A stretch of DNA of 32,276 nucleotides. Source: Candidatus Fibrimonadales bacterium (GTDB lineage: Bacteria > Fibrobacterota > Fibrobacteria > Fibrobacterales > Fibrobacteraceae). The notes beneath the pieces are model-generated. The model had not been told where the DNA came from and made no database searches. It saw nothing but the letters and a program-made list of their open reading frames with translations. The position numbers and the translations under genes were made by a program. The stretch is from contig WQSZ01000005.1 in NCBI GenBank assembly GCA_009787645.1, positions 244-32,519 on the forward strand, in the 5' to 3' direction. This document shows positions 1,563-31,746 of this stretch, piece by piece; the first letter of the stretch is position 1; the number at the start of each line of letters is the position of its first letter.

Positions 1563-2402
1563 ATGAACTATTTTAAAGTTCTGATTTTCCTTTTTACTTC
1601 TTTGGCTCATGCGGTTAGCACTGTTGCCGTTTTGGAAGTTGTTCCAAGCGGTGATATGAGTTTGAAACTTTCCAAGTACTATAATTTGACGGACGAGCTC
1701 TGGACGATAGCCGGTAATACGCTTTCGCAGCGAAACTATACTATTCTGACTCGCGACAATATCCTGTCCATGCTTCCACCCGATTCGGAAGAGGCAAAGT
1801 GTCTTGCCAAGAGCTGCGCTGTTGACATTGGCAGGGCAATTGGAGCGGAATATGTTATGCAGGGTTTTGTTAACGAGTTCGGAGGCATGCTTATCTTGAC
1901 TGTTGAGTTGTATGAATCCATAAGCGGTCATCTTCTAGGCAGCTTTGTCACGGAGAGCGTGAATGTAATGGGGTTGCTCAAGGCAATTCGGGATAAAGCT
2001 CCGGATTTGTTTGCGAGGATCAACAGCAAAGCTACTGAGCAGAAGCCTGAGCCTGAATCGGTTATTTCTCTGGTGGAAGAAGTGGATTCCGAACTTGACA
2101 ATAAGCTTGGGCAGAAGATAGATACTCAGATTGAAAGCGTTGAAAAAAAGGGCAACGCCAGCTTTTGGGTTGCTTTAGGTTTTGATTTGGTGGGAGTCGG
2201 TCTTGTAGCTTACGGCTTTGTGAAAAACGCAGAGGCTAAGGATTTGCATTACGATTACTGGAATTTGCCCCGTGCATCTTCCCAAGATGAATTTGATCGC
2301 TTGTGGGAAAAGGCGGATGATGCGCGCAGCATGAGAAATAAGTTGTACATAGTAGGTAGTTTGGTTTTGGCAACCGGTATAGGAGTTCATATATGTTTTT
2401 GA
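1563..2402 (+). CDS. Putative exported/envelope protein of unknown function with C-terminal TM segment
   Basis: N-terminal signal-like segment (MNYFKVLIFLFTSLAHAVS), a domain resembling TolB-N/CsgG-like outer-membrane-associated domains (AIGAEYVMQGFV), C-terminal hydrophobic helix. Confidence 0.5.
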   Translation: MNYFKVLIFLFTSLAHAVSTVAVLEVVPSGDMSLKLSKYYNLTDELWTIAGNTLSQRNYTILTRDNILSMLPPDSEEAKCLAKSCAVDIGRAIGAEYVMQGFVNEFGGMLILTVELYESISGHLLGSFVTESVNVMGLLKAIRDKAPDLFARINSKATEQKPEPESVISLVEEVDSELDNKLGQKIDTQIESVEKKGNASFWVALGFDLVGVGLVAYGFVKNAEAKDLHYDYWNLPRASSQDEFDRLWEKADDARSMRNKLYIVGSLVLATGIGVHICF

Positions 2403-3130
2403 GATTTATTTTATCGCTATGCTTTGGCATTGTCTTTTTTGGTTGCGCTGACATAGAACGTGACAACCCTAATGATCCCAAGAGTCCCAATTACATCGCA
2501 GATGCCTATTTATTCAGTTCGTCGTCTGTATTTAGCGCTCCCTTGAGCTCGTCCGGCGGTGGTGCTTGCCCTGATGCAGTGACCACAGATAACTCAGTAT
2601 CTTGCGGCGGCCAGACTTATGAGACGGTTAAAATTGGCTTGCAAACTTGGATGAAAAGTAATTTGAATTATGCTGTTAGTGGCAGCAAATGTGGCAATGG
2701 TTCTTCGCTTTCTGATACTAATACCACAACTTGCGATACCTACGGCAGGTTGTACAATTGGGAAATATCCAAGACTGTTTGTCCTTCTGGTTGGCATTTG
2801 CCTAGTGATGCGGAATGGACAGCGCTTATAAATTATGTTGAAAGCCGAGGTAATTGTACTGGTTGCGCAGGAACTAGGCTTAAGGCAAAATCCGGTTTGT
2901 GGTATGAAAATACAGGCACTGATAACCATGGTTTTTCGGCTTTGCCAGGTGGTTATGGCAGTTCCGTTGGCAATTTCAACTATGTAGGCAGTTACGGCTA
3001 CTGGTGGAGCAGCACAGAATACAACAGCAACTTTGCCCACAGCCGTGATATGTACTATTACTTCAGCAATGTGGACAGGGGCATAAGCAGTAAGACCTAC
3101 TTGTTCTCAGTTCGCTGCATGCAGAATTGA
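2393..3130 (+). CDS. Lipoprotein with Fibrobacter succinogenes major paralogous (FISUMP) domain
   Basis: Lipobox FFGCAD; TYETVKIGLQTWMKSNLNY, YGRLYNWE, CPSGWHLPSDAEWTAL, GFSALPGG, GYWWSSTE, SVRCMQN are FISUMP signatures. Confidence 0.9.
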   Translation: MFLRFILSLCFGIVFFGCADIERDNPNDPKSPNYIADAYLFSSSSVFSAPLSSSGGGACPDAVTTDNSVSCGGQTYETVKIGLQTWMKSNLNYAVSGSKCGNGSSLSDTNTTTCDTYGRLYNWEISKTVCPSGWHLPSDAEWTALINYVESRGNCTGCAGTRLKAKSGLWYENTGTDNHGFSALPGGYGSSVGNFNYVGSYGYWWSSTEYNSNFAHSRDMYYYFSNVDRGISSKTYLFSVRCMQN

Positions 3131-27053: not shown

Positions 27054-27929
27054 TTATTTGGTCTTTTTAGCCGTAGTAGTTTTCTTTGGTATAGTGGCAG
27101 CAGTCGTTTTTTTAGTGGTTGTGGTGTTTGCTGTTTGCCTGCTGTTTTGCAACCACCTTCTATACATGGCTATTGAGTCCCTTAACACTTCTATCTCGGC
27201 ATCTTTTGCATCTATCATTGAATCTTTGAGCATTGCCACTTCAACATTTTTGGATATGCGTGTGGAATCTCTCACTATTGCCATTTCATTTTCTTTTGCA
27301 ACCCTCAATGAGTCTTTCAATATTGCAACTTCTGCATCTTTGGCAAGTATTACGGAATCGGCGATTATTTTTGCTTCTTTTGCCTGCGTATGTACCATAA
27401 ATACATAAAAGACTAGAGACAGAAAGGCCAAAAAGAGCACTGACATAAAAAATCGTATTTGTTTTTTGAGCCTTACTCTCAAGCATGGCTTTGAGAGCAA
27501 GAAGGAGTCCTTCATTTTTTCATAAACCGCATCAAAATGTATGGGATTGAGATCTATGGAGTTTTTTCTATTCAAGTCTTTAATATCGTCCGGCAATCTT
27601 TTTGGAAAAACAAAGCCATCCAGCACAAGCGGAATTATATTTTTATTTGACTGTAGCGCACAGATAATCTCTTGGCGAACCCAGTCATCCTTTGCATTGT
27701 AGCCCGGCTCACGGAATCGCTCAAAAATCCCTGAGTTCAATACAAGCAGAAAATCTTTGCATTTCTTGACTTTTCTCTCCAACTCATTGTCAAAATTCCC
27801 ATTTTCCAGAGCGTCAATATCAAAAAAAACAGAGTATCCATCTAATCTCAATCTATCATAAAGCAGCTTTGCTGTATCATAGCCCCCCTTACGCCTGTAA
27901 GAGATAAAAATTTTAAATGTCTTTTGCAT
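27054..27929 (-). CDS. Membrane-anchored TIR-domain protein with C-terminal 15-residue repeat helix
   Basis: TIR features FISYRRKGGYDTAKLLYDRLRLDGYSVFFDIDAL, KCKDFLLVLN, DDWVRQEI; TM at about residues 159-180; five 15-aa repeats; T/K-rich tail. Confidence 0.85.
   Translation of the reverse strand: MQKTFKIFISYRRKGGYDTAKLLYDRLRLDGYSVFFDIDALENGNFDNELERKVKKCKDFLLVLNSGIFERFREPGYNAKDDWVRQEIICALQSNKNIIPLVLDGFVFPKRLPDDIKDLNRKNSIDLNPIHFDAVYEKMKDSFLLSKPCLRVRLKKQIRFFMSVLFLAFLSLVFYVFMVHTQAKEAKIIADSVILAKDAEVAILKDSLRVAKENEMAIVRDSTRISKNVEVAMLKDSMIDAKDAEIEVLRDSIAMYRRWLQNSRQTANTTTTKKTTAATIPKKTTTAKKTK
27153..27377 (-). repeat. Five tandem 45-bp (15-codon) coding repeats in the TIR protein
   Basis: EAKIIADSVILAKDA / EVAILKDSLRVAKEN / EMAIVRDSTRISKNV / EVAMLKDSMIDAKDA / EIEVLRDSIAMYRRW. 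Confidence 0.85.
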
Positions 27930-27950
27930 ATTAAGAATATAGCAATTTAA

Positions 27951-27985
27951 CCCAGCTCAAATTTTGCAATCCGAGCTGGGATTGC
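27951..27985 (-). other. 3' trailer with interleaved inverted repeats (candidate H-type pseudoknot), copy A
   Basis: Minus strand GCAATCC-CAGCTC-GGATTGC-AAAATTT-GAGCTG(GG): 7-bp stem whose loop is complementary to the downstream 6-mer. Confidence 0.6.
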
Positions 27986-28002
27986 TGGTTGCTACAACAA
28001 TT

Positions 28003-28308
28003 TTATTTACAATAGCCGGTTACGGTCAAAGTCTCAAATGTTATTGGTCCGTAGCTGGTGTTCTTCCAATGGGAAGTAACGTTAACAACTTCAGTTCCGC
28101 TGCATTGGCTGGACAAACCCTTTACTGCTTCTTCTGCTTTATCAATTTTCATTGGAGTAAGCATAAGAATGTTCATTGAAGAAGTTTCTGCCTTAACCTT
28201 TTTTCCGCTGTTTTCGGAAACATGGCCACCAACAACTGCCATTGCGGAGCTACATCCGGTCAGGACAAAGGTAGCGGCCACTGTTAGTGCTATTAGCGTT
28301 TTTTTCAT
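28003..28308 (-). CDS. Small lipoprotein A
   Basis: AAGGAG SD before ATG at 28308; MKKTLIALTVAATFVLTGCSS lipobox; NILMLTPMK, QCSG, GPITFE, GYCK shared with copy B. Confidence 0.8.
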   Translation of the reverse strand: MKKTLIALTVAATFVLTGCSSAMAVVGGHVSENSGKKVKAETSSMNILMLTPMKIDKAEEAVKGLSSQCSGTEVVNVTSHWKNTSYGPITFETLTVTGYCK

Positions 28309-28424
28309 CTTGTTCTCCTTGGGCAAAGCCCACTTTTCCCGAGTTTAACCAAATCAGACTCTTGGGAACACGGAGTTTGATTGGGTTTGCCGTTATGGCA
28401 GCATCCAGACGAAAACGCCTGAAA
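28309..28424 (-). other. Conserved structured 5' leader, copy A
   Basis: About 115 nt almost identical to copy B, with several hairpins next to the SD. Confidence 0.6.
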
Positions 28425-28429
28425 TTACG

Positions 28430-28459
28430 GGAAAAGAAAAAGGGAGCTTTTACCCCCTT
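28430..28459 (-). terminator. Candidate intrinsic terminator between promoter A and leader A
   Basis: Minus strand AAGGGGGTAAAAGCTCCCTTTTTCTTTTC: short GC stem followed by T-rich run. Confidence 0.45.
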
Positions 28460-28557
28460 CCTCGAAAAATCTATATTTTCTACTACATTTATCCGGCAAA
28501 TTCGATAAAATCGGATAGCACCAATATTTAAAGTAGTATCTTCCTTTCATGAGAATA

Positions 28558-28586
28558 AATATAGTTTTTTTTCTGGCAAATGTCAA
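28558..28586 (-). promoter_or_regulatory. Sigma70-type promoter A (TTGACA-17 nt-TATATT)
   Basis: Minus strand TTGACA TTTGCCAGAAAAAAAAC TATATT. Confidence 0.8.
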
Positions 28587-28649
28587 GCCCTTACAAGAAA
28601 AAATATAACTTTAATTAAAAAACGACGATTTCTGCGTAAAAATGAGGTT

Positions 28650-28716
28650 TTACCCCATCACAACCACAACCGCATGCTTTTTTCCAGGCAAAATCGGGAC
28701 AACATGACCTTTGATC
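28650..28716 (-). pseudogene. Orphan duplicated 3' fragment of the GH94 gene
   Basis: Translates to ...IKGHVVPILPGKKHAVVVVMG*, matching the GH94 C-terminus (one T to A change) with no upstream gene. Confidence 0.9.
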
Positions 28717-28720
28717 TTAA

Positions 28721-28755
28721 CCCAGCTCAAATTTTGCAATCCGAGCTGGGATTGC
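28721..28755 (-). other. 3' trailer candidate pseudoknot, copy B
   Basis: Identical to 27951-27985. Confidence 0.6.
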
Positions 28756-28772
28756 TGGTTGCTACAACAATT

Positions 28773-29072
28773 TTACTTGCACTGGCCAGATAATACTGCC
28801 TTTTCAAAACTTATAACACCCAAATTTAGATCATCGCGCCAAAAAAGCCCGTTGACAAATTCTCCTCCGGCGCACTGTTTTCCAGCATCTTTTATCAACT
28901 CTTTCATTTGCTCGTTTTTCATTGGAGTAAATGCCAAGATATTGGTATTTTTTGCTTCCACAGTTACTGCTTTCCCTGAAGCCTGATCGCTTATGCCACC
29001 AGCAGGAATACCTGTGACACCGCAACCGACTAAAGCTACAGCAATTATTGCTAATGCTATGATTTTTTTCAT
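28773..29072 (-). CDS. Small lipoprotein B, diverged paralog of lipoprotein A
   Basis: AAGGAG SD before ATG at 29072; MKKIIALAIIAVALVGCGV lipobox; NILAFTPMK, QCAG, GVISFE, GQCK. Confidence 0.8.
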   Translation of the reverse strand: MKKIIALAIIAVALVGCGVTGIPAGGISDQASGKAVTVEAKNTNILAFTPMKNEQMKELIKDAGKQCAGGEFVNGLFWRDDLNLGVISFEKAVLSGQCK

Positions 29073-29187
29073 TTTGTTCTCCTTGGGCAAAGCCCATTTT
29101 TCCCGAGTTTAACCAAACCAGACTCTTGGGAACACGGAGTTCGATTGGGGTTGCCGTTATGGCAGCATCCAGACGAAAACGCCTGAA
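29073..29187 (-). other. Conserved structured 5' leader, copy B
   Basis: Nearly identical to 28309-28424; begins about at the predicted TSS of promoter B. Confidence 0.6.
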
Positions 29188-29193
29188 AAAACA

Positions 29194-29222
29194 AATATAG
29201 CATTTTTTTAGACAAATGTCAA
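29194..29222 (-). promoter_or_regulatory. Sigma70-type promoter B (TTGACA-17 nt-TATATT)
   Basis: Minus strand TTGACA TTTGTCTAAAAAAATGC TATATT. Confidence 0.85.
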
Positions 29223-29286
29223 GTCCTTACAAGAAAAAATATAACTTTAATTAAAAAACGATGATTTCTGCGTAAAAATGAGGTTT

Positions 29287-31746
29287 TTACCCCATCACAA
29301 CCACAACCGTATGCTTTTTTCCAGGCAAAATCGGGACAACATGACCTTTGATCTCCCTGCCGTCTATGGTCACGCTCTTAACTCCCTTGCTTACGCCTTT
29401 GGGGTTTTTCACCTTAATAACATAATCTGCGCCACGAAATTTGCGATTTACGCTGAACTCTGTCCACGCTTTGGGAATGCAAGGGTTAATCGACAAGCCG
29501 TCAAATGTGGCCTTTATGCCCAAGATGTATTGAGTAGCAGCCTGATATGTCCAAGAGCTTGTACCGCTCAGCCATGCATTGCGAGCCAAGCCGAACTTCT
29601 CGTGCTCATCGCCCAAAATATTTTGAGGATAGCAATAAGGTTCTGATTCAAATTCGTCTATCAAACCGTTGTTTTTCGCAGCGGGATTGATTTGGTTGTA
29701 ATACTGGAATGCCCTGTCTCCATTGCCAATTATGGTCTCTGCGATCATAATCCAAGGATTTGCATGCAAAAATATTCCGCCATTCTCCTTTGCTCCGGGA
29801 GGGTAAGTTGAAACTCCGCCGACATGAGGATTAAAACCGTCGTAACCGGGCCAGGAAAGCTTTATTCCATTCTTTGTGTTGAGATACTTGTAAACGCTTT
29901 TCAAAGCCAGCTTTGCACGATCTTCGGGTGCAACGCCACTTATCACAGGCCAGCTCTGGCCAAGCGAATCTATTTTATTAACAGCGTTTTTGCTTGAGCC
30001 AAGTGCTTTGCCCTTTTCGTCAAACCAGCGCACATACCACTGGCCATCCCAAGCGACTTTGTTCACCTTTGCCTTTATGTTTTCATACCACGCCTTATAT
30101 TGCGCAACAAGTTTTTTGTCACCAATGGCTTGGCATATATCTATCATCTCCACCAAAGCTTTCGCAAAAAGATTCGCATTGAAAAGAGACTCTGCGCCCG
30201 TTGGCAAATTAACAGTGTCGTTCCAGTCCGCAAAACCCAAATGCGGAATGCCGTGCTTGCCGCAATCCTTATGAGTAAACGCAACGCTTCTCTTCAAGTG
30301 CTCCAAAACGGTAGCCTTCTCACGTTTTCTGAGTTCTTTCTTCTTGTTATAGAAAGGAATCTGTTTTTGGAGGAATTTCAAATTTCCTGTTTCTTTCAGG
30401 TAAGAAGCTACGGTCAAAACAATCCACAGATGATCGTCGCCGTAGTACTTTGGGCGGTCTTCCTTTTCACGGGAGTCGCCTTCGTTGGCTTCCATTGTGC
30501 TGGGGAAATACTGGTGCATGGCATTACCGTCTTCCAATTGAACGGAGAGCAAATTCTCTGCCAAAACACGAGCTTCTTCTGGCATGTGGCTCATAACACC
30601 GAGCAAATCCTGGCTGGAATCACGGTAGCCAATTCCTCGATCGCTACCAAAGCCGAGTTGATAAAGGCTCAAATAACGGCTCCAATTTTTTGTGGTGTGG
30701 CACTGGCGAGGATTGTGGATATTCACCATTGAGTTAAAGCTCGCATCAGGAGTTTTTACCTGCAATGCGCCGAGATATTTGTTCCAGAATGTGGCTAATT
30801 CGGCAAATGCTTTGTCAATGTTTTTGAGATTGCGGTATTTTTTTATTTCCGGCATTGCGGCTGCCAAGCTTTTTTGTTTGCCGAGTTGTGTTGCAACACG
30901 ACCTGTTTTTTTATTGGCGAGTTTGAATTTGAACATTTGCGCTGCGATGTTGTCTCCTCTTAAAGCGGAGCTGTTCGTAAGCTTGCCATTGTAGATTGCG
31001 CCGGGGCATGCCCACCCCATAATTTCATTAAACCCGAGGAAACTTCTGCGATCGCCGTCATAGCTATTTGCCGCCATGCTTGCGGTGAAATAATTTACCT
31101 CGTATTCCTTTTTCATAAATGCATATTGCTCTAAGATAACGTGGCCGCTTTTTTCCTTGTGGGCGTCAAGAGTCATGGTTTGCGGAACCCAGTCTGCGTT
31201 TGTCAATTGCTTTAATGCATCAAAATGGCTGAATTCATAAACCGGCACAACATCAACTTCAAGTTTTTTGCCGGAGATGTTCTGAACGGAAATGTCCTGA
31301 ATAAGAGTGGAGCTTTTTGACGGGACAAAAACCGTTATTTTAACCCTAATGCCATAGCCTTCGGCCACCCATGTTGTATAGGAAAGCCCAACTCGGCATT
31401 CCCATTTATCCCAGATAGTGCAGGTTGGCACAACAAAAGGAGAGATTATTTTGTAGGAGTTTTTCTCTTTTATGCGAAGGTAGATTGTGCTGCCTTTGAA
31501 GTCGCCTGCAGGCATTTGGCTTATATATTTGGTTATGCGGTTGAGAGCCGGATCGCCTTTGCACAGCACTGTTCCGCCTGTTGTATCCACAATTCCACCG
31601 AAATCCAGTGTACCCACATAATTACACCATTTTATGGGCGTAGCCGGATTACGTAGAACGTATTCTTTATTTGCATCGTCAAAATAGCCATAATTGCGGC
31701 CTTGTATTTTGACATTCTTTGCTTTTGCGCTTTTTTTTGCAGCCAT
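29287..31746 (-). CDS. GH94 cellobiose phosphorylase-type glycoside phosphorylase
   Basis: GYFDDANKEYVLRNPATPIKWCNYVG, IGYRDSSQDLLGVMSHMPEEAR, HLGFADWNDTVNLPTGAES, PHVGGVSTYPPGAKENGGIFLHANPW, LSGTSSWTYQAATQYILGI; SD AGGAG. Confidence 0.92.
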   Translation of the reverse strand: MAAKKSAKAKNVKIQGRNYGYFDDANKEYVLRNPATPIKWCNYVGTLDFGGIVDTTGGTVLCKGDPALNRITKYISQMPAGDFKGSTIYLRIKEKNSYKIISPFVVPTCTIWDKWECRVGLSYTTWVAEGYGIRVKITVFVPSKSSTLIQDISVQNISGKKLEVDVVPVYEFSHFDALKQLTNADWVPQTMTLDAHKEKSGHVILEQYAFMKKEYEVNYFTASMAANSYDGDRRSFLGFNEIMGWACPGAIYNGKLTNSSALRGDNIAAQMFKFKLANKKTGRVATQLGKQKSLAAAMPEIKKYRNLKNIDKAFAELATFWNKYLGALQVKTPDASFNSMVNIHNPRQCHTTKNWSRYLSLYQLGFGSDRGIGYRDSSQDLLGVMSHMPEEARVLAENLLSVQLEDGNAMHQYFPSTMEANEGDSREKEDRPKYYGDDHLWIVLTVASYLKETGNLKFLQKQIPFYNKKKELRKREKATVLEHLKRSVAFTHKDCGKHGIPHLGFADWNDTVNLPTGAESLFNANLFAKALVEMIDICQAIGDKKLVAQYKAWYENIKAKVNKVAWDGQWYVRWFDEKGKALGSSKNAVNKIDSLGQSWPVISGVAPEDRAKLALKSVYKYLNTKNGIKLSWPGYDGFNPHVGGVSTYPPGAKENGGIFLHANPWIMIAETIIGNGDRAFQYYNQINPAAKNNGLIDEFESEPYCYPQNILGDEHEKFGLARNAWLSGTSSWTYQAATQYILGIKATFDGLSINPCIPKAWTEFSVNRKFRGADYVIKVKNPKGVSKGVKSVTIDGREIKGHVVPILPGKKHTVVVVMG

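Follow-up and report, generated by a model that had tools for sequence, protein, structure and literature searches.

A multi-copy pseudoknot leader RNA and probably exchanged lipoprotein genes in a termite-gut Candidatus Fibrimonas genome

Translational riboswitches such as preQ1-II, SAM-II and similar classes carry a pseudoknot next to the Shine-Dalgarno sequence (SD), and c-di-GMP riboswitches form multi-copy second-messenger regulons. The leader element described here resembles preQ1-II and SAM-II in being a compact 5' UTR RNA with its pseudoknot partner just before the SD and one gene directly after; it differs from them in matching no Rfam 15 covariance model, in having mostly unrelated targets and in occurring in 5-26 copies per genome, and ligand binding is here a candidate property. 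As in c-di-GMP regulons, many copies per genome stand before surface and accessory genes, whereas the element is without an Rfam match and confined to one genus and a few relatives. With chromosomal integron cassettes it shares a repeated structured element, different ORFs, genome-specific element similarity and same-strand arrays; unlike in chromosomal integrons, no integrase scored above cut-off, the element contains an SD and a pseudoknot, and the units studied here have their own promoters. Structured RNAs of the termite hindgut have been described as the Termite-flg and Termite-leu motifs (Weinberg 2010, PMC2864571); these two Rfam families gave no match to the leader element. That diversity-generating retroelements (DGRs) target Fib_succ_major proteins has been described before (PMC4159848). 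Many of our elements have an upstream FISUMP gene with a C-terminus like that of those variable proteins, in contrast to the lipoproteins of our locus, which show no sign of DGR targeting, and to the element itself, which does not lie at a template/RT locus.

The window, the whole stretch of 32,276 nucleotides that was analysed, is nearly all of contig C5 in a metagenome-assembled genome (MAG) of 203 contigs and 62% completeness. On the minus strand, where all features given in this paragraph lie, the gene order is GH94, unit A, unit B, TIR and HtpG. The duplicated unit starts with the 3' end of the GH94 phosphorylase-like gene (29287..31746; Pfam Glyco_hydro_94, 5e-127), and the TIR-domain protein gene (27054..27929; TIR_2, 2.8e-13) follows downstream of the units. 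Repeat families D1-D4 and alignment delimit unit A (28717..29354), which consists of GH94 tail, promoter, leader A, ORF A and trailer A, and repeats and alignment likewise delimit unit B (27947..28717), which runs from a GH94-tail fragment through promoter, 129-nt insert, leader B and ORF B to trailer B. A TTGACA-17-TATATT promoter was read from the sequence in each unit (A, 29194..29222; B, 28558..28586). ORF A (28773..29072) encodes a 99-aa lipoprotein with the lipobox LVGC (type A) and ORF B (28003..28308) one of 101 aa with LTGC (type B). Searches of both against Pfam and NCBIfam gave nothing above curated cut-offs, with matches at the level of the signal peptide only; an AlphaFold model of ORF B (pLDDT 65) had no PDB match below E=0.001. 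Searches of viral contigs, plasmids and phages yielded no match. Trailers A (28717..28772) and B (27947..28002) are the same sequence, a 13-bp hairpin (-25 kcal/mol, z -5.4) that is terminator-like without a clear T tract. The 129-nt insert (28425..28553), present in copy B only and placed before leader B, has by alignment and folding a two-stem structure with a terminator-like GC-rich hairpin that leads into a T run; a short ORF begins near the expected transcription start, and the insert is possibly an attenuator. At the junction of the two units the end of trailer A (...GGGTTAA) meets the GH94-tail fragment (GATCAAAGG...) with 1-2 nt of microhomology.

The last ~94 nt of the leader form two hairpins, P1 and the long P2, and next to the SD a pseudoknot (UUCCC/GGGAA). 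In the window the element occupies 29071..29164 (leader A, 69.5 bits with the second-round covariance model R2; covariation) and 28307..28400 (leader B, 75.9 bits), both on the minus strand. Leader A has P1 as TGCC/GGCA, the P2 loop CGTGTTCCC, the pseudoknot partner GGGAA, a GGGC-TTT-GCCC hairpin and the SD AAGGAG at 29079-29084. The consensus anatomy is UGCCAUAGUGGCAC-AAAC-UUGCCAAACCCU-GUGUUCCC-AAGGGUUUGGCA-GGGUAAACAAAAAC-GGGAA-(0-8)-GGAG-ATG; the P2 loop pairs with a GGGAA segment that usually lies 0-8 nt before the SD and ~13-20 nt before the start codon (median distance from pseudoknot end to start codon 16, quartiles 14-20). Where pseudoknot and SD are unusually far apart, an extra hairpin lies between them in several cases, as in the window (GGGC-UUU-GCCC) and at L181 and L209, which speaks for function in RNA, at the ribosome. 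An SD and an ATG followed 100 of the 118 first-round matches.

BLAST with leader A matched the leader of the type-A gene in genome G001 and that of a FISUMP gene in G003, the latter keeping the pairing of leader A with the letters changed. A first covariance model, R1, built from four sequences, recovered many copies throughout the genus, and R2 was built from 118 matches in the fetched loci and scores 121 elements. Already in the first four sequences 4 pairs had changed on both sides, and 95% of cells were paired against at most 52% with slid partners. The alignment of R2 had been fitted to the P1 and P2 helices and counts related copies several times; in it, 15 of the 16 modelled pairs change on both sides, doubly changed cells number 258 against 78 +/- 14 in shuffled alignments, and the covariation score is 0.459 against at most 0.10 with slid partners, where pairing falls to 28-50%. 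The pseudoknot, which lies outside the covariance model, covaries as well: a CCCC loop tends to be matched by a GGGG partner (30/13/11/55, Fisher p=2.6e-8), and GUCCC pairs with GGGAC in three copies. A per-sequence permutation of the pseudoknot gave a modest difference (13.63 vs 13.15, sd 0.15) because most copies share UUCCC/GGGAA; the association of C runs with G runs is the clearer test. Folded as single sequences, the leaders were not significantly stable (z about -1 to -2) and that of G003 took a different fold, so the structure rests on covariation and not on energy. Compensatory changes and the fixed position relative to the start codon thus mark the leader as a predicted structured cis-regulatory RNA. 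No Rfam 15 family scored above its gathering threshold (the best window hit at E<=10 had 20 bits, all being far below gathering), and ten element-bearing loci searched at E<=1 gave none; the element is apparently an undescribed RNA family.

R2 found 177 matches. They cover all 12 available genomes of the genus (60-94% complete), at 5-26 copies per genome. This genus is the termite-gut Ca. Fibrimonas, with Ca. Fibrimonas termitidis GUT221, and not rumen Fibrobacter; no Fibrobacter-like g2 genome had a match, and among 156 other Fibrobacterota three did (G017, G018 and G142). On one contig of G142 (C200, locus L223), from another family of the phylum, three GC-richer elements with the same fold were seen, one of them before a FISUMP gene, which suggests wider spread or transfer. 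Scans of the downstream proteins detected a Fib_succ_major domain in 20 of 93 and, by a simple pattern, a lipobox in 33 of 99, and a few resemble restriction or other defence proteins. Most pairs of downstream ORFs are unrelated, even behind almost identical elements (up to 98.6% identity on contig C76 of G001). On that contig (L159) eight elements stand in a run, several of them 83-99% identical, before lipoproteins and unrelated ORFs. The window therefore exemplifies a wider pattern, in which one leader stands before different ORFs. The original prediction had spoken of a variable-ORF cassette system. The genus-wide leader before mostly unrelated ORFs agrees with it; the cassette part found less support, as no dedicated mobiliser was identified and the trailer, in contrast to the leader, is found only in the source genome among 111 family genomes.

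We considered whether the element could be an attC-like DNA recombination site of an integron-like array that swaps ORFs, its fold being that of a single-stranded DNA site. The elements are arranged head-to-tail on a single strand with ORFs in between and often begin 5-20 nt past the previous stop codon, and, as in chromosomal integrons, copies are more alike within a genome (0.595) than between genomes (0.556; 0 of 300 permutations) while the ORFs differ. However, none of the 12 genomes, all incomplete MAGs, had an integron integrase (TIGR02249) over the cut-off (best 83 bits vs 265), so the window system is not taken to be an integron; no conserved RYYYAAC/GTTRRRY boxes were seen by eye in the consensus, and one would not expect a DNA site to contain a covarying pseudoknot whose partner keeps a nearly constant distance to SD and ATG. 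We regard this explanation as unlikely.

Four two-copy families were returned by a repeat search of the window: leader (126 nt, 96%), promoter (103 nt, 90%), trailer (76 nt, 92%) and GH94 tail (70 nt, 99%). The prediction that near-identical flanks surround two strongly diverged lipoprotein ORFs was borne out by counting. Past the stop codon the trailers, said to be identical, differ at 0/56 positions, and the leaders, said to differ at about four, do so at 5/114; near-identity had also been claimed for the promoters (7/89 with the spacer, a few due to end placement) and for the GH94 tail (1/67), whose second copy (28651..28717, minus strand, by segment alignment) is non-coding. Together the flanks differ at 13 of 326 aligned bases (4.0%). 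The ORFs share 37% amino-acid identity and diverge by 51.5% in nucleotides, with dS saturated, so that synonymous divergence is far from equal to the 4% of the flanks. The 111 family genomes contain a single orthologue of type A (G001, 74%) and two of type B (G011, 68%; G010, 67%), and with the tree supporting the A/B split in 100/100 this split is older than these species. The trailer of the type-A orthologue differs from that of the window, leaders and trailers of both B orthologues are unlike those of the window, and neither B orthologue had a significant match to the leader element; the trailer and the 129-nt insert had no other match in the 111 genomes. The flanks of A and B are young and the ORFs are old. 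Old ORF types, differing orthologue flanks and the private trailer and insert indicate that a recent duplication or recombination gave the two units their matching flanks. Chance repeats were considered and rejected. Drift after a simple duplication, already doubted in the prediction, is ruled out by the ancient types, the other trailers of the orthologues and the leaderless B orthologues.

In G007 the TIR gene lies within ~10 nt of the GH94 stop codon with no insert, an empty site, and in G002 HtpG follows GH94; the insertion is therefore specific to the source lineage. At the corresponding interval of G008 (L070, contig C58) a DUF4143-type ATPase gene replaces the lipoprotein units between GH94 and TIR, and the interval may be an insertion hot spot. 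The best reading of the tandem is a recent duplication with ORF exchange inside the flanks. A leader-bearing gene would first have entered the interval from GH94 to TIR. Two units would then have arisen by tandem duplication or by unequal recombination of an A strain with a B strain, and between matching leader and trailer a type-B ORF would have displaced a type-A ORF or would have been added. Of the two routes that had been predicted, the data favour the one in which recombination at conserved flanks exchanges ORFs, given the ancient types and the B orthologues of G010 and G011 without the window's leader or trailer. The microhomology at the A-B junction is as in illegitimate tandem duplication, and unequal recombination of an A with a B strain in a single step is just as possible; judged from one genome, either duplication or recombination may have come first. 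It is quite improbable that the tandem is instead an assembly chimera of two coexisting strains that carry A and B, respectively. The genome is a fragmented, 62%-complete metagenome assembly and shared stretches of 56-114 nt could mislead short-read assembly, so a strain chimera could contribute; but an overlap of just 1-2 nt at the trailer/GH94-tail junction is not normally invented by assemblers, and a 129-nt insert and a GH94-tail fragment of its own set copy B apart.

At least 50 of the 121 elements directly follow a FISUMP stop codon, a count that may carry selection bias since the loci were fetched because of the element. DGR-type RTs preceded by an Asn-codon-rich template repeat matching FISUMP C-termini occur in four genomes (loci L230 in G006, L231 and L235 in G009, L232 in G005 and L233 in G002). 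In five template/variable pairs, few and diverged, adenines mismatched at 47% against 15-23% at other bases, which is good but not final evidence that FISUMP C-termini are DGR variable regions; a retroelement with many targets in termite-gut Fibrobacterota is possible. The window has a FISUMP gene of its own (2393-3130, plus strand), whose C-terminus (WWSSTEYNSNFAHSRDMYYYFSNVDRG...FSVRCMQN) resembles a DGR variable region and after which no leader element was found. These links could be read as showing that the element is a 3' structure of upstream DGR targets, comparable to the hairpin that follows the variable region of phage BPP-1. Yet about half of the elements, both window copies included, do not follow FISUMP; IN01_221, taken as a close counterpart of G001, is reported to have 119 FISUMP copies (PMC4704652) against 26 elements listed in G001; the distance to the upstream stop is variable and that to the downstream ATG tight; and loci L230-L235 had no significant element match. 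Being neither at template/RT loci nor generally after variable regions, the element does not qualify as a DGR component, and this reading is very unlikely, even if for the part of the family right after FISUMP genes some 3' role for the upstream gene is conceivable. Least credible, although the leader is a real structured RNA, is the second predicted route, in which selection kept the UTRs constant while the lipoproteins diverged strongly in place: the non-coding GH94-tail copy, which needs no constraint, is ~98.5% identical too, dN/dS is ~0.16 within type A and ~0.15 within type B, and the orthologues, closer than A is to B, have unrelated trailers and, in the case of B, other leaders as well.

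A genus-wide translational control element together with a history of exchange that left young flanks around old ORFs is the best explanation of the data, and we give this reading a probability of roughly 0.7. Pseudoknot formation or melting would control access of the ribosome, so that the element would serve as a translational on/off or tuning device for accessory, often surface, genes; its trigger could be a ligand, a protein or a small RNA. From its architecture the element is a candidate riboswitch, with no riboswitch class assigned. More tentatively, and with the odds against it, it may represent a new ligand-responsive class whose genus-wide regulon in termite-gut Fibrobacterota controls translation of fast-changing accessory surface and defence-like genes and whose conserved sequence serves ORF exchange between strains.

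With its many copies, strong covariation and mostly unrelated targets, this apparently undescribed leader RNA of uncultured fibre-associated termite symbionts is at once a candidate for a new class of riboswitch or regulatory RNA. The window offers a concrete and probable example of ORFs being exchanged behind a conserved expression signal. That signal is linked to FISUMP proteins that are apparently diversified by a retroelement.
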